DNA of 35,071 nt from IMG/VR virus record IMGVR_UViG_3300031692_000012, positions 1 to 35,071 of that record. One strand, 5' to 3'. Shown in pieces: positions 1,766 to 35,063 of the stretch (position 1 is the first letter of the stretch; the number at the start of each line of letters is the position of its first letter). A program made the translations under genes and the position numbers. The notes beneath the pieces were generated by a model that was given only the letters and a program-made list of their open reading frames with translations, was not told the DNA's origin and searched no databases. The DNA comes from a virus.

Positions 1766-1777
1766 TGAGATAAAGTA

Positions 1778-1838
1778 TGGTCGTGAGTTGAAGGGTAAGA
1801 AAGAGAGGATTGTTATTATGCAAAACAACTCACGACCA
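1778..1838. repeat. 13-bp perfect inverted repeat with 35-base spacer
   Basis: TGGTCGTGAGTTG (1778-1790) and its exact reverse complement (1826-1838) flank 35 bases. The spacer contains AAGAGAGGAT, the leader word used by the leftward small genes, here on the + strand and followed by an ATG (1818) opening a 14-codon ORF. It lies between convergent operons. Its role is unknown. Confidence 0.6.
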
Positions 1839-1844
1839 ATCTGT

Positions 1845-1884
1845 ACCCGCCTCTGGGCTTGAACCATGTTAGCGGGTTTATTTT
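1845..1884 (+). terminator. Probable terminator of the rightward early operon
   Basis: ACCCGC (1845-1850) pairs with GCGGGT (1872-1877), followed by a T-rich run (TTTATTTTA). It sits directly after the early operon and before the converging leftward genes. Read on the - strand the same element also resembles a tRNA minihelix (acceptor-like stem plus a GGTTCAA loop); see findings. Confidence 0.45.
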
Positions 1885-1889
1885 ATATA

Positions 1890-2141
1890 TTATATTCGCG
1901 TCTTCAGTTTTTCAACATCCTCCGTTATGTTTTTTATTAATAGCTCTACTTCGTTTTCATCATACTTGTATTTTTCCAACATTAATAATGATTGTTTGGC
2001 TGTTACTGTAATAGACTTAATGTTTTTTATCCTTTTTAATACAGACTTGATTGTTTTAGCCTCATCGTAACTGCTAACATCCATTAGTTTTTTCATATCA
2101 TCATTGCTTCCGTATTTCACGTATGAGATTTCATATATCAT
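1890..2141 (-). CDS. Hypothetical helical protein
   Basis: An 83-residue, Lys/Glu-rich protein predicted mostly helical, with hydrophobic heptad-like spacing in the C-terminal half (around YKYDENEVELLIKNITEDVE). I do not recognise a family. It is the last gene of the leftward cluster. Its start follows GGGAG, unlike the AGAGAGGATAA leader of the upstream genes, so it may be an older, non-shuffled member. There is no membrane segment and no cysteine pair. Confidence 0.5.
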   Translation of the reverse strand: MIYEISYVKYGSNDDMKKLMDVSSYDEAKTIKSVLKRIKNIKSITVTAKQSLLMLEKYKYDENEVELLIKNITEDVEKLKTRI

Positions 2142-2156
2142 GATAAAACTCCCGAT

Positions 2157-2402
2157 TTATAAGTCATTAATTATTTTTTGGGAAAACTTTTTGGAATGGG
2201 CATTATTAATTAAATCTTCAATTTTTTCAATGCCACACCTAATCCCGAATCTAATACATCGCAGCTCATTAATTCTTTTAAAATCCGGGAAAAATCCTTC
2301 ATGGTTTTTTGTTTTATAATTGATGATTTTAGTTAAAGAATCCTCCATTTCTTTGAGCTTTTGATGAGTTTCTATTACCGTAAATATAGTAGTTGGTTCC
2401 AT
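2157..2402 (-). CDS. Hypothetical helical protein
   Basis: An 81-residue protein, basic overall. An N-terminal amphipathic helix (ETHQKLKEMEDSLTKIINYK) precedes a segment with two cysteines (LRCIRFGIRCGIEKIEDL). No family is recognised. The start is preceded by AAGAGGTAAAAATT, a variant of the cluster's common leader. It lies 15 bases from the next leftward gene, so it is probably co-transcribed with it. Confidence 0.5.
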   Translation of the reverse strand: MEPTTIFTVIETHQKLKEMEDSLTKIINYKTKNHEGFFPDFKRINELRCIRFGIRCGIEKIEDLINNAHSKKFSQKIINDL

Positions 2403-2491
2403 AATTTTTACCTCTTAATTTGGTTTGGTTTTACTGATAAAGACATATTCTTTAAGAAAAAATAAACTAATTATAATTAAAGCGTTATACA

Positions 2492-2854
2492 TTATAATTT
2501 CTCCTTCAGGGCTAACAAAATACTAATAATTTCTAGCGCCGTTTCGTTCACAAGTTCATTGGTGGCGTTTATTTTTAAAACTAAATCTTCACTTTGATGA
2601 AGTGTTTCCCTTATTATTTGGGTTGTTCTAACTCCGTCGGAGGATTTATTGGTCTTGCTTATGTTTTCCTCTGTCGCAAGAGAAACAAAAAAAGAAGATA
2701 TCTGAACTAACGCCACTGCCATAGCTAGCGGGGTTTCTATCGCGCCACGTTGTGAAAGCGGTTTTAAATTTTCTAAACATTCATCGATCAATTTGTTCAT
2801 GTAGGTTTGTAGCTCGCTTTTTGTCATAATATTTTTTGTTGTTTTTTTAGTCAT
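2492..2854 (-). CDS. Hypothetical protein, mostly helical
   Basis: A 120-residue protein. The N-terminus is Lys/Thr-rich and contains an alternative in-frame Met at residue 10. A moderately hydrophobic helix (about residues 43-60, LAMAVALVQISSFFVSLA) and a long C-terminal Leu/Ile-rich helix suggest a helical bundle. No family is recognised. Its RBS, AAGAGAGGATAA, overlaps the last codons of the upstream gene, where the same bases encode QKRG and the stop, so translation of the two genes is coupled. Confidence 0.55.
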   Translation of the reverse strand: MTKKTTKNIMTKSELQTYMNKLIDECLENLKPLSQRGAIETPLAMAVALVQISSFFVSLATEENISKTNKSSDGVRTTQIIRETLHQSEDLVLKINATNELVNETALEIISILLALKEKL

Positions 2855-2857
2855 GAT

Positions 2858-3100
2858 TTATCCTCTCTTTTGATTATTATAAAGTCGAATTGTCTTATTG
2901 ACGTCGTTTAGTATCTGAGCTTCAAGTATTTTGGCTATCTGGATATTTGCAGTTGCCCCTCTGTAAAATTGAAAGTCCCATACAAGCTCACATAGACAGA
3001 TAATCGTTATCGGTAGATAGTCCCACAAGCTGATGTGTATAGCTATCCCCGCCGCTTTTAAAATAAAAAGTAAAACCCCTATCAGTATGCTTGTAATCAT
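2858..3100 (-). CDS. Small two-helix membrane protein, paralogue A
   Basis: An 80-residue protein with two hydrophobic segments, about residues 2-18 (MITSILIGVLLFILKA) and 28-44 (YLPITIICLCELVWDF), then a polar tail ending IRLYNNQKRG. The first 16 residues are identical to those of the next gene upstream, and the middle part is a recognisable but diverged copy. The stretch IRLYNN recurs at the C-terminus of the 152-residue protein at 3516-3974, so this gene joins two reused segments. It probably sits in the inner membrane. The function is unknown. Confidence 0.6.
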   Translation of the reverse strand: MITSILIGVLLFILKAAGIAIHISLWDYLPITIICLCELVWDFQFYRGATANIQIAKILEAQILNDVNKTIRLYNNQKRG

Positions 3101-3217
3101 AATGTTATCCTCTCTTTTTTAATAAAATTAAATAAATAATCTATCATTTCATCACACATCCGCGCTGCAAAGTAACAATCTTGCGGAGCTCGCATTATTA
3201 TTATAAAGTCGAATACC
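3054..3217. repeat. 164-bp direct repeat, copy 1
   Basis: Nearly identical (I see one difference) to 3418-3581, offset 364 bp. It spans the first codons of a small membrane-protein gene, its leader, and sequence that in the other copy encodes the C-terminus of the upstream 152-residue protein. It reads as the trace of a tandem duplication kept uniform by recombination. Confidence 0.9.
3152..3217 (-). pseudogene. Detached C-terminal remnant of the 152-residue GDGY protein
   Basis: This copy of the 164-bp repeat contains the same bases that encode IRLYNNNASSARLLLCSADV at the end of the gene at 3516-3974, but has no N-terminal part in frame. Instead the upstream paralogue B enters it in another frame and ends HVSWYSTL. 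It is a remnant carried along by the duplication, not an independent gene. Confidence 0.6.
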
Positions 3218-3464
3218 AGCTCACATGAAGCCCTGCCAAAGATATCGCTATAGCTATCATCACAGTTGTTGCCAGCGTTATAACCACGCCTTTATAAAAA
3301 TCAGTGGAGTAACAGCAAAAACTCTTGATTATTCTGAAGTCTAATAGCAACTCAGAGAGCATGATAATCACTAGCGGTAGCATATCACACCAGCCGATGT
3401 TCATGCTTACTCTCGTGGCTTTTAAAATGAAAAGTAAAACCCCTATCAGTATGCTTGTAATCAT
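3201..3464 (-). CDS. Small membrane protein, paralogue B
   Basis: An 87-residue protein. The N-terminal MITSILIGVLLFILKA is identical to paralogue A; residues about 20-45 (WCDMLPLVIIMLSELLLDFR) are a diverged version of A; a third hydrophobic stretch (about 59-78, GVVITLATTVMIAIAISLAG) is not in A. The last residues come from the repeat entered in a different frame. The identical 5' end next to diverged middles indicates gene conversion or recombination at the repeated leader. It is probably an inner-membrane protein of unknown function. Confidence 0.6.
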   Translation of the reverse strand: MITSILIGVLLFILKATRVSMNIGWCDMLPLVIIMLSELLLDFRIIKSFCCYSTDFYKGVVITLATTVMIAIAISLAGLHVSWYSTL

Positions 3465-3581
3465 AATGTTATCCTCTCTTTTTTAATAAAATTAAATAAA
3501 TAATCTATCATTTCATCACACATCCGCGCTGCAAAGTAACAATCTTGCGGAGCTCGCATTATTATTATAAAGTCGAATACC
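3418..3581. repeat. 164-bp direct repeat, copy 2
   Basis: This is the partner of 3054-3217. Here the repeat covers the start of paralogue B, the shared leader (AAAAAAGAGAGGATAA before ATG) and the true C-terminal codons of the gene at 3516-3974, ending just before the GDGY-coding tract. Confidence 0.9.
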
Positions 3582-3974
3582 TGAGCCCTCGCCATTGCCA
3601 TCGCCCTCGCCATAGCCATAGCCCGTGCCATCACCATATCCTGGAACATAGCTTGGAATATTTTGTTCTGTTTGACCTATCTTCTCTTCATAAAAAGATT
3701 TCCATTTGGAGTAATCGCACTTTATACGCGCGATAATAGTAAAGTTATTGAGTTCTACTAAACCAGCTTTGTCTAACAACGTATTTTCTTTCTTGCCTTC
3801 TAAAGCCAGCTCGCCTAGACCCCGACTCGTCCCCCAGCTACGTATCACATATGCATCAGTTAAAGTGCAATCATTTTCTTTTTTAGACAAAAATCCAATC
3901 ATCACAAATCCACGCTGCAAAATAACAATTTCTAACGCTTTTTCTTGCTCTTCTTCTTGCTCTTTAGTGTGCAT
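3516..3974 (-). CDS. Small phage protein with C-terminal GDGY tract
   Basis: A 152-residue protein in three parts. The N-terminus MHTKEQEEEQEKA is shared with the 47-residue ORF at 4660-4803. The core, about residues 14-100, contains VIRSWGTSRGLGELAL and LDKAGLVEL; I recall this RxWGTxxGLGELA pattern from small phage proteins (possibly DUF6948) but cannot confirm it. A Gly/Asp/Tyr repeat follows at about residues 112-132 (YGDGTGYGYGEGDGNGEG), then IRLYNN. The repeat is encoded by GGC-NAT hexamers like those of the ORF at 34740-35063. The 3' end lies in the 164-bp repeat. Leader AAAGAGAGGATAAAATT. Confidence 0.65.
   Translation of the reverse strand: MHTKEQEEEQEKALEIVILQRGFVMIGFLSKKENDCTLTDAYVIRSWGTSRGLGELALEGKKENTLLDKAGLVELNNFTIIARIKCDYSKWKSFYEEKIGQTEQNIPSYVPGYGDGTGYGYGEGDGNGEGSGIRLYNNNASSARLLLCSADV
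3582..3645 (-). repeat. Degenerate GGC-NAT hexanucleotide tract
   Basis: On the + strand this reads as alternating GCC-ATN/GCC-CTC units; on the - strand it encodes the Gly-Asp/Tyr/Glu stretch of the 152-residue protein. The unit matches the long tract at 34743-35030. A more decayed version lies near 4023-4058 in the 68-residue ORF. Confidence 0.75.
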
Positions 3975-4001
3975 AATTTTATCCTCTCTTTTTTAATAAA
4001 A

Positions 4002-4208
4002 TTAAATAAATAATCTATCATTGCCCGCGCCATCGCACTCGCCACAGCCCGCGCCCCAGCTAACATATCCTATCGCCTTTGCTATGGCGAAAGATTTTGC
4101 CGTAGTCATAAATATTACTATAGCCATTAATTCAACTATCATTTTTTCTAAAATCTTGGTTACATCATCGTAGGTCATGATGTCATTATCTCTTTGTGTA
4201 GGTTTCAT
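4002..4208 (-). CDS. Chimeric small ORF (shared N-terminus, decayed Gly-rich C-terminus)
   Basis: A 68-residue ORF. Residues 1-27 (MKPTQRDNDIMTYDDVTKIL onward) are identical to those of the 129-residue ORF upstream, at DNA level too (142-bp repeat). After this the sequence switches to a hydrophobic stretch (about 28-48) and a Gly/Cys-rich tail, GYVSWGAGCGECDGAGNDRL, a decayed form of the GDGY repeat. The last codons run into the leader of the next gene. It may be a working variant or a recombination by-product; the intact frame and RBS favour expression. Confidence 0.5.
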   Translation of the reverse strand: MKPTQRDNDIMTYDDVTKILEKMIVELMAIVIFMTTAKSFAIAKAIGYVSWGAGCGECDGAGNDRLFI

Positions 4209-4268
4209 AATTTTATCCTCTCTTTTTTTGATTTGATTACTTCACCCATTTTCCGACAAATCTTCCGT
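4127..4268. repeat. 142-bp direct repeat, copy 1
   Basis: By eye identical to 4545-4686, offset 418 bp. It contains the first 27 codons of the MKPTQRDND-type genes, their leader, and the end of the upstream coding region. The copy at 4237-4268 encodes GRFVGKWVK at the end of the 129-residue ORF. Confidence 0.9.
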
Positions 4269-4626
4269 AAAAATCTGTTTGGATCGTAAGTCTACCCTTT
4301 GCTATGTCGTCTGTGACATCGGTCAGGCGAGAAAACTGCGCCCCGATGCTTTCTTCTTCGTTGCACCACTGCCGCCATAATTTTAAGTTTATACTGATGA
4401 TCGCCTCTCTTGCCCATGCATAGGATGTAGCCACATAGTCTTTATGCATCTCGTCCATTAGCATTTCTTCTCCGCTGTAGCCTTTTTCATCTAGTAAAGC
4501 TTGTATCTCTTTTTCTTGCTCTTTATCTAGTAAAGCTTGTATCTTTAATTCAACTATCATTTTTTCTAAAATCTTGGTTACATCATCGTAGGTCATGATG
4601 TCATTATCTCTTTGTGTAGGTTTCAT
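4237..4626 (-). CDS. Hypothetical small phage protein
   Basis: A 129-residue, acidic N-terminal protein. Residues 1-27 are shared with the ORF at 4002-4208. A short internal duplication follows (IQALLDKEQEKE then IQALLDEKGY), which is a DNA repeat of about 24 bases. The rest (about 50-129), with LWRQWCNEEESIG and ending TIQTDFYGRFVGKWVK, is unique to this gene and looks like a folded domain, but I do not recognise it. Leader AAAGAGAGGATAAAATT. It is probably the full-length member from which the 68-residue chimera was derived. Confidence 0.55.
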   Translation of the reverse strand: MKPTQRDNDIMTYDDVTKILEKMIVELKIQALLDKEQEKEIQALLDEKGYSGEEMLMDEMHKDYVATSYAWAREAIISINLKLWRQWCNEEESIGAQFSRLTDVTDDIAKGRLTIQTDFYGRFVGKWVK

Positions 4627-4686
4627 AATTTTATCCTCTCTTTTTTTGATTTGATTACTTCACCCATTTTCCGACAAATCTTCCGT
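4545..4686. repeat. 142-bp direct repeat, copy 2
   Basis: This is the partner of 4127-4268. In this copy the bases that encode GRFVGKWVK are read in another frame by the 47-residue ORF, giving the ending TEDLSENG. A third, diverged copy of the VTKILEKMIVEL-coding part lies at about 4688-4745. Confidence 0.9.
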
Positions 4687-4803
4687 CAGTTTAATTATTA
4701 TTTTTTCCAAAAATTTAGTTACATCATCGTAGGTCTTGAGGTCATTATCTAGTAAATTTTCTATCGCTTTTTCTTGCTCTTCTTCTTGCTCTTTAGTGTG
4801 CAT
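4660..4803 (-). CDS. 47-residue chimeric ORF, first of the leftward cluster
   Basis: The ATG at 4803 is preceded by AAGAGAGGATAAAATT and opens a 47-codon frame ending in TGA (4660-4662). Residues 1-13 (MHTKEQEEEQEKA) match the start of the 152-residue protein; residues about 24-37 (YDDVTKFLEKIIIK) are a diverged copy of the YDDVTKILEKMIVE segment of the MKPTQRDND genes; the ending TEDLSENG is repeat DNA read in a shifted frame. Every part is therefore borrowed from neighbours. It may encode a small acidic peptide or be a recombination intermediate. Confidence 0.5.
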   Translation of the reverse strand: MHTKEQEEEQEKAIENLLDNDLKTYDDVTKFLEKIIIKLTEDLSENG

Positions 4804-4848
4804 AATTTTATCCTCTCTCTTAAAAAAAATTAAAGTAAAAGTAAAAAG

Positions 4849-4925
4849 ATTATCGTCTTCGGTGTTTATTTTTCTTTTTCCTGGCTGTCCCGGCAGCCGG
4901 GGTTGACGAGATGACGATAATCGTC
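4849..4925. promoter_or_regulatory. Nested inverted repeats in the leftward leader
   Basis: Outer arms ATTATCGTC (4849-4857) and GACGATAAT (4913-4921) enclose a GC-rich hairpin, CCTGGCTG (4880-4887) with CAGCCGGG (4894-4901) around a six-base loop. GACGATAATCGTC (4913-4925) is itself an interrupted palindrome. The hairpin is not followed by a T-run in either direction, so it is not a classical terminator. A structured 5' leader or a pair of operators is more likely (inference). Confidence 0.45.
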
Positions 4926-4998
4926 TATAATCATATATCGATAGTAATTGTATCGGTCAGGATTTTATTGCTATCTTTGTTTTTATGATTATGTCTAT

Positions 4999-5027
4999 AG
5001 TATAGTAAAGAAATTTGAGATTGTCAA
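4999..5027 (-). promoter_or_regulatory. Strong sigma70-type promoter of the leftward cluster
   Basis: On the - strand TTGACA (5022-5027) and TATACT (4999-5004) are separated by exactly 17 bp. The transcript would start near 4992, leaving a leader of about 190 bases before the ATG at 4803. It would cover all the small leftward genes, since no terminator is obvious between them. Confidence 0.75.
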
Positions 5028-10149: not shown

Positions 10150-10443
10150 ATGCCACAAGTGCAAGCCAGCGCAACGAATAAAAATATAGAAGAGTTAAGG
10201 GAGATGTTTGCTGTTTGGAAAAATCATCCAATCACCAAAATTCTTCATAATTATTTATTATTTCTTTTAAAACAGGAGACCAATATTATCATGAGTCTCT
10301 ACAGCATGCACTTGGATGCTGATAACAAGCTTTTGAATTTGGGAGCGCATTCTCATAGGGCGCGTTTTATAGACGGACTTACAAAACTATCATTTGATGA
10401 ACTTATTCCCATAATTGAGGAACAACAGCGTGGCAAAATATAA
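10150..10443 (+). CDS. Hypothetical protein after portal
   Basis: A 97-residue protein, mostly helical (KILHNYLLFLLKQETNII). It could be a small assembly factor, but I do not recognise a family. It has a good SD (AGAGG) nine bases after the portal stop. Its 3' end overlaps the start of the next gene by 14 bases, as is common in compact phage operons. Confidence 0.6.
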   Translation: MPQVQASATNKNIEELREMFAVWKNHPITKILHNYLLFLLKQETNIIMSLYSMHLDADNKLLNLGAHSHRARFIDGLTKLSFDELIPIIEEQQRGKI

Positions 10444-12306: not shown

Positions 12307-12407
12307 CTTCAGACACAGGTCTTTCAACAGTTCCATTCAATTACAGACAAATTTTAGTATCTTCAGACACAGGTCTTTCAACAGTTCCATTCAATCAGAC
12401 ACAGGTC
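12307..12407 (+). repeat. 35-bp direct repeat, two copies plus a 13-bp partial
   Basis: Copies at 12307-12341 and 12361-12395 are identical (core CAGACACAGGTCTTTCAACA) and spaced 54 bp apart, with a 19-bp unique spacer. A partial third copy, TCAGACACAGGTC, begins at the end of the second (12395-12407). With only two full copies and no cas gene this is not a CRISPR array. It lies in the gap before the decoration and capsid genes. Confidence 0.85.
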
Positions 12408-12446
12408 AAAAACAAAAGTAATTAATATTAATTAATTTTTTATGTA

Positions 12447-12530
12447 AGGACGATTGCGCCCTTTATTAGGACGATTGCGCCCTTTATTAGGACGATTGCG
12501 CCCTTTATTAGGACGATTGCGCCTTTTATT
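12447..12530 (+). repeat. Four tandem 21-bp repeats
   Basis: The unit (core GGACGATTGCGCCC, then TTTATT) occurs at 12447, 12468, 12489 and 12510; the first three are identical and the last has one C-to-T change. The 21-bp period equals two helical turns, so a bound protein would line up on one face of the DNA. The array ends 24 bp before the ATG of the decoration gene. It is GC-richer than its surroundings. Role unknown; it could be an activator/operator array or a structured leader. Confidence 0.9.
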
Positions 12531-12554: not shown

Positions 12555-13124
12555 ATGGCAAATACAAATACCGTTTTTGGCGCTCGCTTAGTTGATAGTC
12601 TTTCGGCAAGTTTGATGAATGGCAAAGTCCATCCATATACTGTACCAGCAACCGATGCTGTTGCTCTATTTGTAGGAGACTTTGTTAAATTAACTGGTGA
12701 ATCAGCCAATGGTGAAGACGGATTAAATCATCCCGTGGTTACTCAAGCTGCAGCTACCGAATTGTTAGTTGGTTTTGTTGCGGGATTTTTAGTAAACCCA
12801 AATTATTTAACACAATTGCATCGTACAGCAAATACGTTACGTACTGCTTTGGTTTTTGATGACCATATGGGGTTATTCGAGATCCAGTCTACAGGTGTAG
12901 GAGCAACGGGCGATATTGGGCAAAATGCCGATATCACTGTAGCTGCTGGTAGTACTATAACTGGACTATCCGGTATGCAATTAGATCACGCAACATTAGC
13001 TGGTGCTGATGGACAATTGCGTATTGTAAGTTTATCAAACACGGTTGCATCTGAGTTTGGGACATATACAAAATTTACATGTCTTATTAATGAACATTCC
13101 TATAAAGGGACTGTTGGAGTTTAA
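12555..13124 (+). CDS. Capsid decoration / structural cement protein
   Basis: A 189-residue protein directly before the coat gene. The pattern KVHPYTVPATDAVALFVGDFVKL (about residues 24-46) and the later GDIGQNADITVAAG are typical of phage cement/decoration proteins that bind the outer capsid. Its full length is paralogous to residues 1-187 of the 1347-residue fibre at 28477-32520 (shared YTV..TD...L..GD.VKL.G, DIG..A...V.AG, YTK..C.I..H). SD GAGG is ten bases before the ATG. The tandem 21-bp array lies in its leader. Confidence 0.75.
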   Translation: MANTNTVFGARLVDSLSASLMNGKVHPYTVPATDAVALFVGDFVKLTGESANGEDGLNHPVVTQAAATELLVGFVAGFLVNPNYLTQLHRTANTLRTALVFDDHMGLFEIQSTGVGATGDIGQNADITVAAGSTITGLSGMQLDHATLAGADGQLRIVSLSNTVASEFGTYTKFTCLINEHSYKGTVGV

Positions 13125-28476: not shown

Positions 28477-31400
28477 ATGACAAATAATTATAGTCCGTGT
28501 GGTGGTAAAGCATTAGATACTTTAATTGCTACTAATTTTACGGGAAAAGTAAATAAATATACAGTAAATTCCACAGACATGACCGACCTATGGTGTGGTG
28601 ATGCGGTAAAATTAGTGGGTGGTTCTGATGATAATGGTATCCCATATATTACAAAAGCAGCGGCTGGTGAAAAGTTAGTTGGTTTTGTTTCATCTATTAA
28701 AAATATTTATCCTAACGAAGATATTATTTATCGGCAGGGCGGAGATGTAGTAAACGTTTATGTTTATGATGATCCATTTATGGAGTTTGAAATACAAGCT
28801 AATGGTAACATTACTGCTGCTGATATTGGCAAGGAAGCAAACCTTGCTGTTGAAGCTGGTAATGCTGCTGTAGGTGTATCGCGAACCCAAGTAGATGTTG
28901 CTACTTTGGGTGTATCTCCTAGCCAGATAAAAATAATTGATATAATAGAACGAGAAGGAAATATTCTTGGAGATTATACAAAATTACGCTGTATAATTAC
29001 CAATCATGCTTTTAAAGATTTAGCAGAAGATATTTTTGATAGAGATGCGGTAACAGGAAATATTACCACTCATAATGCTGGTGATTCTTTAGAGTTAGAT
29101 GGTGAACTTACTGTAAATAATAATGCTACTATTGATGGCAAATTAACTGTAACAGGTTTAATTGATCCAACTGGTTTAGCATTAGATGCCCAGGCTTTGG
29201 CTCCTGCTACTACTAATGGAACTATATTTTATAGTAGTGTTAGTAATTCATTTCAATTCCGCGCAGATAGTCAATGGGTGTCTTTACCGCAACCATTCCC
29301 GGTAATTAATGTTGCAGCAGATTTTCCATTTCTTAGTGCTGTATATCTTGGTGAAACTTATCGAATTGGTAATGATGTAACAGATAATGATCCCACAAGG
29401 ACAAATACCGGGCAAAGTTTTCCTGCCGGGAGTGAAATATTCTGGAATAACATTAATTGGACTTTAGTCGGCGCTATAGCGCTTTGGGGTGATGATGGCA
29501 CCAGATTAACTCCTATTAATGCTCGTAATGTTAATATTCTTACAGGTCAGGCTTATCAGATTAATTCTCTTGATTTTATTTCAGCACCTGGAACGAATAA
29601 TGCTTGTATAGGTTTTAATACTGATGGTTCTTTAACAACTGGTTCTGAAAACATCTTTATAGGAACCGACGCCGGAAGTTCTACTACCACAGGTTCTCAA
29701 AATGTTTATGTTGGTTATCAAGCTGGTAAAGGTGGTGTTGATGCACAATTTAATTTGTGCATGGGATATACTTCTGGTTCCTCTCTCACTAGCGCATCTA
29801 ATAATGTGTTTATGGGTAATTCTTCAGGGAAAAACACAACAACTGGCGGCTATAATGTTTTCATAGGCGCTTCAGCAGGATTACAAACCACAACTGGTAC
29901 AAACAATATCTGCATAGGTTATAAGGCGGGTAGAGTTAACAATGATAATTCTCAGGTTTTTATTGGTTATCAGGCAGCGATGGCTTTAGTTACCGGCAGT
30001 TGTAATATTCTAATTGGCTGTAATGTGGGATCCGCGTTAACAAGTGGTAATAATAACGTTATCCTGGGATGGGGTGCTGCTGCTACAGCTACTACTTCTG
30101 TTGGTAATACATTGGTGGGTGCTAATACTGGATTTTCTTTTACTACCTCTACTAATAATGTTTGTGTCGGTCTAAATGCCGGTTATGGAACTTCTACCGC
30201 ATCTAACAGTGTTTATATTGGATATAATGCTGGATATACTGCTAATTCTAACTCACTTGTTCTTATTGGGTATCTTGCGGGAGAAGATTTGGGTACCGCT
30301 TTAAATAATGTGTTTATCGGGAGTGCCGTTGGAAAAGAGATAATCGGTGGTGATGATAATGTGCTAATTGGAAATAATGTTGCGACTACTGCATTAGCAT
30401 CCACATCAAATACTATTGTTGGCAGTCACGGAGGGTTTGCCTTAACTACAGGAACTACCAATACAATCTTAGGTCATTATGCTGGTGGTTCATTAACAAA
30501 TCATACCGGGAATGTACTCATTGGTTATAATGCTGGTAAGAATTTAGCCGCGTCTAATAAACTTTATATTTCTAATTCTGATACAGCAACGCCGTTAATT
30601 GAAGGTGATTTTTCAGTTCCTAATGTAATTATAAATGGAACGCTAAGAGCTACAAATTTAACCGCATCTTCTTTAATCGGTGCAAATGCATCTAAGGATA
30701 TTGTAACAATTACTGCTTTACCTGATGGAACCACAGCAACTACTCAGGCTCCTGGAGATAATTCTACTAAGGTAGCAACAACTGCATATGTTGAAGCTGC
30801 AGTTTTAGTAGAAAATCTATGGGATAGGGCTGGAACAGTTATAAGCCCACATACTTCTGGTGATTCTTTAAGTATTAATGCAATTGATGAAGAGACTGGT
30901 GGCTCTGGAGTTACGATTCAAGGAGTTGTTATAGACGAAACAGGGGCTAATTCTTTTACGATGACTCGTGGCACATCTGTATTAACAGTATCTTCAAGTT
31001 GTACTCTTGACCAAAGTTTAGCTATTGCAGATTCTCCAACTCACTCAGGATTAACTCTGAGTTCACTTAATGTTGCAGGTGGTATTGTGCAGACTAATGG
31101 ATCTGGTGTTTTGTCAAGCAGCACTGCCTTACCTGATGGGACCACGGCAACTACTCAGGCACCGGGAGATAATTCTACTAAGGTAGCAACAACTGCATAT
31201 GTTGAAGCAGCTGTTGGTGTAGAAAGTATGTGGGATAGAGCTGGAACAGTTATAAGTCCACATACTGATGGTGACTCTTTGAATGTTAATGCAATTAATG
31301 AACAGTCTGGTGCCTCTGGAGTAAGGATCCAGGGTATTCAGATAGATGAAGGCGGTGCTAATACATTTGTTATGATTCGTGGAATAACACTTCTGAGCGT

Positions 31401-34739: not shown

Positions 34740-35063
34740 CTATTCATAGCCATAGCCATCACCATCACCATAGCTATAGCTATAGCTATAGCTATAGCGA
34801 AAGCCACAACCTAAGCCATCGCCATCGCCTGAGCCATAGTTGCCGAAACCATAGCCATCGCCATCGCCTGAGCCATAGCCATAGCCCCAGCCATCGCCCT
34901 TGCCATCGCCTGAGTCATAGCCTGAGCCATAGCGACCAAAGCCCTCACCATCGCCATCGCAGAAGCCATAGTCATAGCCATAGCCAATGCCATCGCCTAA
35001 GCCATAGCCATCGCCAAAGCCAGAACTTGATTGATTCTGATCAAAATTAATTGTTCTTTTCAT
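34740..35063 (-). CDS. GDGY hexanucleotide-repeat protein
   Basis: A 107-residue ORF. After a short unique start (MKRTINFDQNQSSSGF) almost every second residue is Gly, alternating with Asp or Tyr and some Ser/Phe (for example YGYGSGDGDGYGFGNYGSGD). It is coded by imperfect GGC-NAT hexamers. One unit near the C-terminus has become RYSYSYSYSY. No known fold is implied; it is probably disordered or amyloid/adhesive-like. The start is near the window end, with AGTAACCA upstream; the matching SD and promoter are at bases 1-46 if the ends join. The same tract ends the protein at 3516-3974. Confidence 0.6.
   Translation of the reverse strand: MKRTINFDQNQSSSGFGDGYGLGDGIGYGYDYGFCDGDGEGFGRYGSGYDSGDGKGDGWGYGYGSGDGDGYGFGNYGSGDGDGLGCGFRYSYSYSYSYGDGDGYGYE
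34743..35030 (-). repeat. Long GGC-NAT hexanucleotide repeat tract
   Basis: On the + strand the tract is alternating GCC and AT(C/A) units with occasional GAG/CCC/TTG variants, broken by TAGCTATAGCTATAGCTATA (about 34772-34795). Because the unit lacks stops in most frames, several frames on both strands stay open. This is a tandem-repeat low-complexity locus that is prone to slippage. Confidence 0.85.

Follow-up and report, generated by a model that had tools for sequence, protein, structure and literature searches.

The virus contig IMGVR_UViG_3300031692_000012, which we analysed as the entire IMG/VR record (the window; 35,071 bases, a contig of ~35 kb), carries nine small open reading frames (ORFs) that run leftward between the replication-initiation and terminase genes (g1 to g9, 1890-4818; Table 1). 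Stretches of identical DNA recur among these ORFs, and the main new result of our analysis is that the shared stretches differ in reading frame from copy to copy. What was re-used in these blocks is DNA sequence and not protein modules. We consider it most probable, at about two chances in three, that this island is an accessory leftward operon shaped by segmental duplication together with unequal homologous or illegitimate recombination.

The start of a 142-nucleotide (nt) repeat, ACGGAAGATTTGTCGGAAAATGGGTGA, gives YGRFVGKWVK in g8 and, in another frame, TEDLSENG in g9. Similarly, ATTCGACTTTATAATAAT is read as IRLYNN in g6 and g4 and as WYSTL in g5, and a 44-nt block lying 5' of three of the gene leaders is coding in g7, where it supplies the last residues, and intergenic after g6 and g5. 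The ends read out of frame in the island are TEDLSENG, SGIRLYNNNASSARLLLCSADV and WYSTL. A preliminary description of this DNA had named IRLYNN and GDGY as shared C-terminal blocks. IRLYNN is indeed in frame in two ORFs, g6 and g4, the same DNA being out of frame in a third, g5; the literal string GDGY is absent from the island. A GYGDGTGYGYGEGDG tract is found in one island ORF, g6 (3516-3974), which is the only one with a clear Gly-X tract; the ORF that does carry GDGY repeats lies at 34740-35063. Since the shared DNA is read in different frames or is non-coding, the 'C-terminal blocks' would mostly be DNA scars rather than exchangeable protein parts. The N-terminal blocks of the same description, in contrast, were all found: MITSILIGVLLFILKA twice, MHTKEQEEEQEKA twice, and MKPTQRDNDIMTYDDV twice with a diverged copy, DNDLKTYDDV. 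In the third frame both 152-nt repeats read VFDFIIIMRAPQDCYFAARMCDEMIDYLFNFIKKERITL; this frame is open upstream, and its stop overlaps the ATG that follows. Behind g7 there is a related sequence, MIDYLFNFIKKERI. These third-frame stretches are probably remnants of an ancestral gene end that was copied regardless of frame.

The repeats are genuine and greatly exceed what chance would give. They include exact direct repeats of 152, 142 and 54 nt, each in two copies, and of 44 nt in three. Exact repeats of at least 18 nt cover 805 of the 1981 nt (41%) between 2840 and 4820, against 0-147 per 2931 nt elsewhere. After dinucleotide shuffling the longest exact repeat had a mean of 11.9 and a maximum of 18 nt, and the longest exact repeats of the contig outside the island measure 44, 35 and 32 nt. 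The exact blocks end abruptly against diverged or unrelated sequence, and this, with a change of block partners at one leader (see below), lends good support to the earlier proposal of repeated recombination or gene conversion. The claim that identical 5' ends stand beside diverged middles also held for g5 and g4, which are 96% identical over codons 1-16 and ~62-67% identical over codons 17-44, and cannot be aligned from about codon 46. Such stepped identity points to recombination between paralogues and not to an aged plain tandem duplication. The middle blocks of g8 and g9 are 82-85% identical, and diverged copies overall 82-93%.

The leaders share the word AGAGAGGATAA, which occurs exactly seven times in the contig, always on the minus strand. 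A scan allowing up to one mismatch returned the same seven copies only, where 0.74 would be expected, and in 100 shuffles the count always stayed below seven. The word had been placed at the starts of all nine ORFs; it is present in seven (g3 to g9), the two leftmost, g1 and g2, lacking it. In each of the seven it is followed by 3-4 bases and then ATG, the normal Shine-Dalgarno place, with its core AGAGAGGA separated from the ATG by 6-7 nt. Ribosome-binding sites of this phage's other genes are related and variable (e.g. AGAGAGGTTTT at 10150). Because a leader-type word followed by a start codon is widespread (at least 118 viral contigs, mostly with one copy each), the most plausible role for AGAGAGGATAA is that of a ribosome-binding site, and its exact sameness here would come from copying.

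The preliminary description went further and saw in the island a cassette system generating new combinations. In an active system of this kind, recombination directed to the AGAGAGGATAA leaders would keep making combinations of the N- and C-modules of small early proteins. The identity of the leaders in seven genes is in keeping with this, as is the pairing of the blocks upstream (U) and downstream (D) of them: U3-D1 at g9, U2-D2 at g8 and g7, U1-D1 at g6, and U1-D3 at g5 and g4. At the g6 leader (3989) the upstream block is found elsewhere with MITSILI, and the downstream block elsewhere with another upstream block (MHTKEQ), which would imply at least one switch at a leader; no other junction calls for one. 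However, just two of eight edges of exact blocks fall at a leader, both of them at g6. The leaders make up ~7% of the stretch, and by simple arithmetic two of eight edges would fall there by chance about one time in ten. In the long blocks the leader is internal and the edges lie within coding sequence. Block joints are out of frame, and words of the leader type are frequent in unrelated phages, mostly as a single copy in a contig. The contig, which may be incomplete, gave no match to Phage_integrase or Resolvase, the recombinases expected of a shufflon or integron, or to RVT_1, the reverse transcriptase of a diversity-generating retroelement. In-frame module exchange at a fixed site was not seen either, since frames differ and most edges lie off the leaders. 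We therefore regard an active cassette system as very unlikely.

On our preferred reading the small phage genes evolve fast and make up an accessory leftward operon, which would have passed through several rounds of segmental duplication and of unequal homologous or illegitimate recombination. Duplication would have left head-to-tail paralogues of two kinds, g4/g5, with a hydrophobic, helix-like N-terminus, and the TYDDVTKxLEK type, g7/g8/g9. We infer that exchange at the shared 5' ends and leaders then put the 142- and 152-nt stretches next to unrelated sequence. Each copied stretch consists of the end of one gene, a ribosome-binding site and the start of the next. ORFs would thereby have become chimeric or shortened, and in several of them the copied DNA is read out of frame. 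On this reading AGAGAGGATAA, the operon's ribosome-binding site, would be inherited with the copies and, as any short repeat, would offer homology for more exchange. The island may continue to be unstable, as recombination between the exact repeats could still delete or duplicate g8 (418 base pairs, bp) or g5 (364 bp). A stronger version, in which homology of leaders and 5' ends drives frequent exchange and makes the island a standing recombination nursery, the population carrying many versions of the small proteins, some of them from old gene ends read in another frame, seems to us improbable.

Several observations weigh against the operon reading. No sibling genome was found with an earlier or later state of the island. 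The differences between g5 and g4 number 20, 13 and 19 at codon positions 1, 2 and 3, with no third-position excess that would point to constraint on this pair, and the coding-potential scores of the small ORFs, based on codon usage, are weak, the ORFs being too short for a decision on frame. Finally, the 142- and 152-nt repeats are near common short-read lengths, so that the number of copies of each loop depends on how the contig was assembled. Since this is a metagenomic contig with two exact repeats of about read length, strain variants or repeats might have been wrongly joined. An assembly artefact of this sort is, in our view, very unlikely: mis-joining of one sequence could not give copies diverged to 82-93%, and if R and B denote the 142- and 152-nt repeats, g9-R-g8-R-g7 and g6-B-g5-B-g4 would form simple loops, in which the order is forced and only the loop copy number uncertain.

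More serious, though still unlikely, is the possibility that most of the run is debris, i.e. decaying, unexpressed sequence in which old genes have been scrambled and lost. The out-of-frame fusions and the open third frame resembling an ancestral gene end would be expected of such sequence, as would weak coding scores and the lack of family matches. Debris fits poorly, however, with nine ORFs open on one strand, seven of them having an intact ribosome-binding site at the correct spacing, and with the differences between g8 and g9, which number 4, 0 and 5 at codon positions 1, 2 and 3 over 16 codons. The absence of second-position changes would be consistent with protein-level constraint on this block. 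Moreover, GC skew is negative at 2001-5000 and elsewhere only at the right end of the contig, marking a strand switch, and each of the nine ORFs is open against 4-19 stops in its other two frames; together these support leftward coding. The leftward promoter-like site (Table 1) and the normal Shine-Dalgarno spacing of the leaders also speak for an operon, in which all nine ORFs would be expressed.

Table 1. Features of the island and its right flank (positions in the window; aa, amino acids)
Feature	Position	Strand	Remarks
g9	4660..4803	-	47 aa; MHTKEQEEEQEKA...TYDDVTKFLEKIIIKL|TEDLSENG; its C-terminus uses DNA of the g8 3' end, read in a different frame
g8	4237..4626	-	129 aa; MKPTQRDNDIMTYDDV...YGRFVGKWVK
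g7	4002..4208	-	68 aa; N-terminal block common with g8 through KMIVEL; 3' part differs
g6	3516..3974	-	152 aa; MHTKEQEEEQEKA..., Gly-X tract, then IRLYNNNASSARLLLCSADV
g5	3201..3464	-	87 aa; starts MITSILIGVLLFILKA; ends WYSTL where g6/g4 give IRLYNN from the same DNA
g4	2858..3100	-	80 aa; g5 paralogue over first ~46 codons; ends IRLYNNQKRG
g3	2492..2854	-	120 aa; has leader, no shared coding block
g2	2157..2402	-	81 aa; lacks AGAGAGGATAA, has AGAGGTAAAAATT instead
g1	1890..2141	-	83 aa; lacks AGAGAGGATAA
AGAGAGGATAA of g9	4808..4818	-	Shine-Dalgarno region
AGAGAGGATAA of g8	4631..4641	-	
AGAGAGGATAA of g7	4213..4223	-	
AGAGAGGATAA of g6	3979..3989	-	the one leader where upstream and downstream blocks appear to switch partners
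AGAGAGGATAA of g5	3469..3479	-	
AGAGAGGATAA of g4	3105..3115	-	
AGAGAGGATAA of g3	2858..2868	-	
142-nt repeat, copy 1	4545..4686	-	3' end of g9, leader, first g8 codons
142-nt repeat, copy 2	4127..4268	-	3' end of g8, leader, first g7 codons; unit 418 bp
152-nt repeat, copy 1	3430..3581	-	3' end of g6, leader, first g5 codons
152-nt repeat, copy 2	3066..3217	-	3' end of g5, leader, first g4 codons; unit 364 bp
54-nt repeat, copy 1	4765..4818	-	leader and MHTKEQEEEQEKA of g9
54-nt repeat, copy 2	3936..3989	-	leader and MHTKEQEEEQEKA of g6
44-nt block up to leader	3979..4022	-	last g7 residues; intergenic at 3469-3512 and 3105-3148
18-nt block ATTCGACTTTATAATAAT	2873..2890	-	g4 3' end; also 3197-3214 and 3561-3578
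31-nt copy, 90%	3899..3929	-	in g6 5' part; sequence present in both 152-nt blocks; frame differs
Open third frame ending ...CELVFDFIIIMRAPQDCYFAARMCDEMIDYLFNFIKKERITL	3100..3291	-	stop overlaps next ATG; also 3464-3676, partly 3935-4069
Sigma70-like promoter TTGACA-17-TATACT	4999..5027	-	reads left into island; strong (11/12), consensus match only
Sigma70-like promoter TTGACG-17-TATAAT	4903..4931	+	reads right toward packaging genes, facing the leftward promoter-like site; consensus match
Perfect palindrome GACGATAATCGTC	4913-4925		in spacer of rightward promoter-like site; operator-like

The island resembles known systems in part. Phage T4 amplifies the small counter-defence genes dmd-tifA by recombination between microhomologies of 6-10 bp (PMC9391042). 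In the island, too, small genes are duplicated in tandem, which would offer raw material for variants, and short homologies may have served there as well. Tandem copies of small-gene segments are present in the island as the 142- and 152-nt exact repeats, at spacings of 418 and 364 bp. The T4 units, however, are identical and arose under laboratory selection (PMC9391042), whereas copies in the island are diverged, chimeric, partly out of frame and known from sequence alone. A second parallel is offered by the Start-Associated Sequences of Cluster K mycobacteriophages, 13-bp elements (GGGATAGGAGCCC) typically 3-7 bp from start codons, with 11-19 copies over the non-structural half of a genome and conservation across phages; their authors suggest that such short start-associated repeats may be recombination targets (PMC3203893). 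As in Cluster K, a word recurs here at the ribosome-binding sites of small non-structural genes, with its Shine-Dalgarno core at start-codon distance. The island word differs in being AGAGAGGATAA rather than GGGATAGGAGCCC and in having all seven copies within one operon (2858-4818), and copying plus ordinary Shine-Dalgarno pairing would explain it. The island appears to be an unusually clear case of already known processes. It would also give a compact snapshot of a possible phage route to new small proteins, in which a gene junction is duplicated and spliced next to other sequence, and old gene ends come to be read in a different frame. Evidence from populations that the repeats still recombine would make it a natural and testable example of gene birth by out-of-frame fusion.

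Searches with TerL, portal, an MCP profile and the island proteins found no sibling of this phage among viral contigs, genomes and phage records, from which the window's own record or a near one may have been left out. The closest capsid protein, by the MCP profile, is 47% identical, and the best full-length match in genomes 44%. None of 26 loci of distant MCP relatives has a leftward run of at least four small ORFs before the terminase. The leader word was rejected as a marker of relatives, as the contigs carrying it mostly have it once and with no island genes in common. We also looked for pairs of ORFs sharing at least 22 exact nt across the start codon in 229 loci, the window included (2.28 Mb, 3799 ORFs). 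The window has seven such pairs and three other loci have one each, none but the window having several. In the locus L065 (7186-7725, minus strand) an 81-nt exact repeat, present twice, runs from the end of one small gene into the start of its neighbour, a second, independent case of this kind of copying. Among 120 loci with Gly-X genes (described below) five more have start-sharing pairs, mostly within the tandem array of L339. The island is therefore an outlier, while the process is present elsewhere.

Functional searches gave little. The nine ORFs had nothing above the curated cut-offs in Pfam or NCBIfam, no PADLOC match, and no PHROG match better than E ~0.05. AlphaFold models made without alignments had mean pLDDT values of 43 (g8) and 58 (g3), too poor for a fold search. 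The anti-defence or host-takeover role proposed in the preliminary description found no support in the Pfam, NCBIfam and PADLOC searches; an anti-defence role for the island, drawn from position and gene size, is a guess.

The rest of the contig includes a single rightward block of podovirus-like structural genes (terminase, portal, capsid protein, head closure, ejection protein and endolysin), the capsid protein having a weak match to Mu gpT. A helix-turn-helix regulator and a replication initiator are encoded in its left part. Rfam and tRNA scans gave no match.

The ORF at 34740-35063 (minus strand) and the 3' part of g6 (~3577-3645) led us to a widespread class of ORFs in phages that contain (Gly-X)n tracts, where X is usually Tyr, Asp, Ser or Asn. 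At least 120 viral contigs carry such ORFs (loci L303, L344, L339, L255, L251, L273, L097 and L123 among them); a literature search turned up no description of the class. Some Gly-X genes are arranged in tandem, up to six in a row; their tracts differ, but their leaders are nearly identical, as are their N-termini (MTEYFYPVG, MKYPNG) and C-termini (STRTRRRS, YPYRLVTR). The arrays in L303, L344 and L339 thus resemble the island in having head-to-tail small genes with near-identical leaders and termini and different middles. There, however, the ends are in frame and only the length and composition of the repeat vary, whereas the island has out-of-frame joints. Serine codons in the Gly-X tracts are almost all TCN, AGY being rare, which may reflect a rule acting on the repeat at the level of DNA. 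Gly-X genes lie directly 3' of a DUF6948 gene (PF22253) in L097 (1971-2578, plus strand) and L273 (2387-3199, plus strand). On the profile of PHROG 18306, DUF6948 proteins align to positions 152-232 and the g6 Gly-X region, only weakly (E 0.13), to positions 104-134, which suggests that fused DUF6948/Gly-X versions exist and that the two may be functionally linked. The Pfam family TrAA12 (PF22807) scores on Gly-X tracts with its last 80 profile positions, above cut-off in L338 (2276-3079, minus strand) and L350 (3859-4359, plus strand); this is probably a low-complexity false match.

Other features of the contig lie outside the island. At 1776-1877 (plus strand) the loop of a 13-bp perfect stem, TGGTCGTGAGTTG/CAACTCACGACCA, contains the start codon (ATG) of a 14-codon ORF (MQNNSRPICTRLWA) together with a ribosome-binding site, AGAGAGGAT; a terminator-like ACCCGC...GCGGGT hairpin follows, and the fold has a z-score of -3.74. 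Non-coding repeats at 12307-12523, just 5' of a capsid-module gene at 12555, comprise CTTCAGACACAGGTCTTTCAACAGTTCCATTCAAT, a direct repeat of 35 nt, and a unit of ~21 nt, AGGACGATTGCGCCCTTTATT, that is present four times in tandem. Finally, a 44-nt exact repeat (30754-30797 and 31165-31208) within the gene for a putative tail protein of 1347 amino acids is part of an internal duplication.

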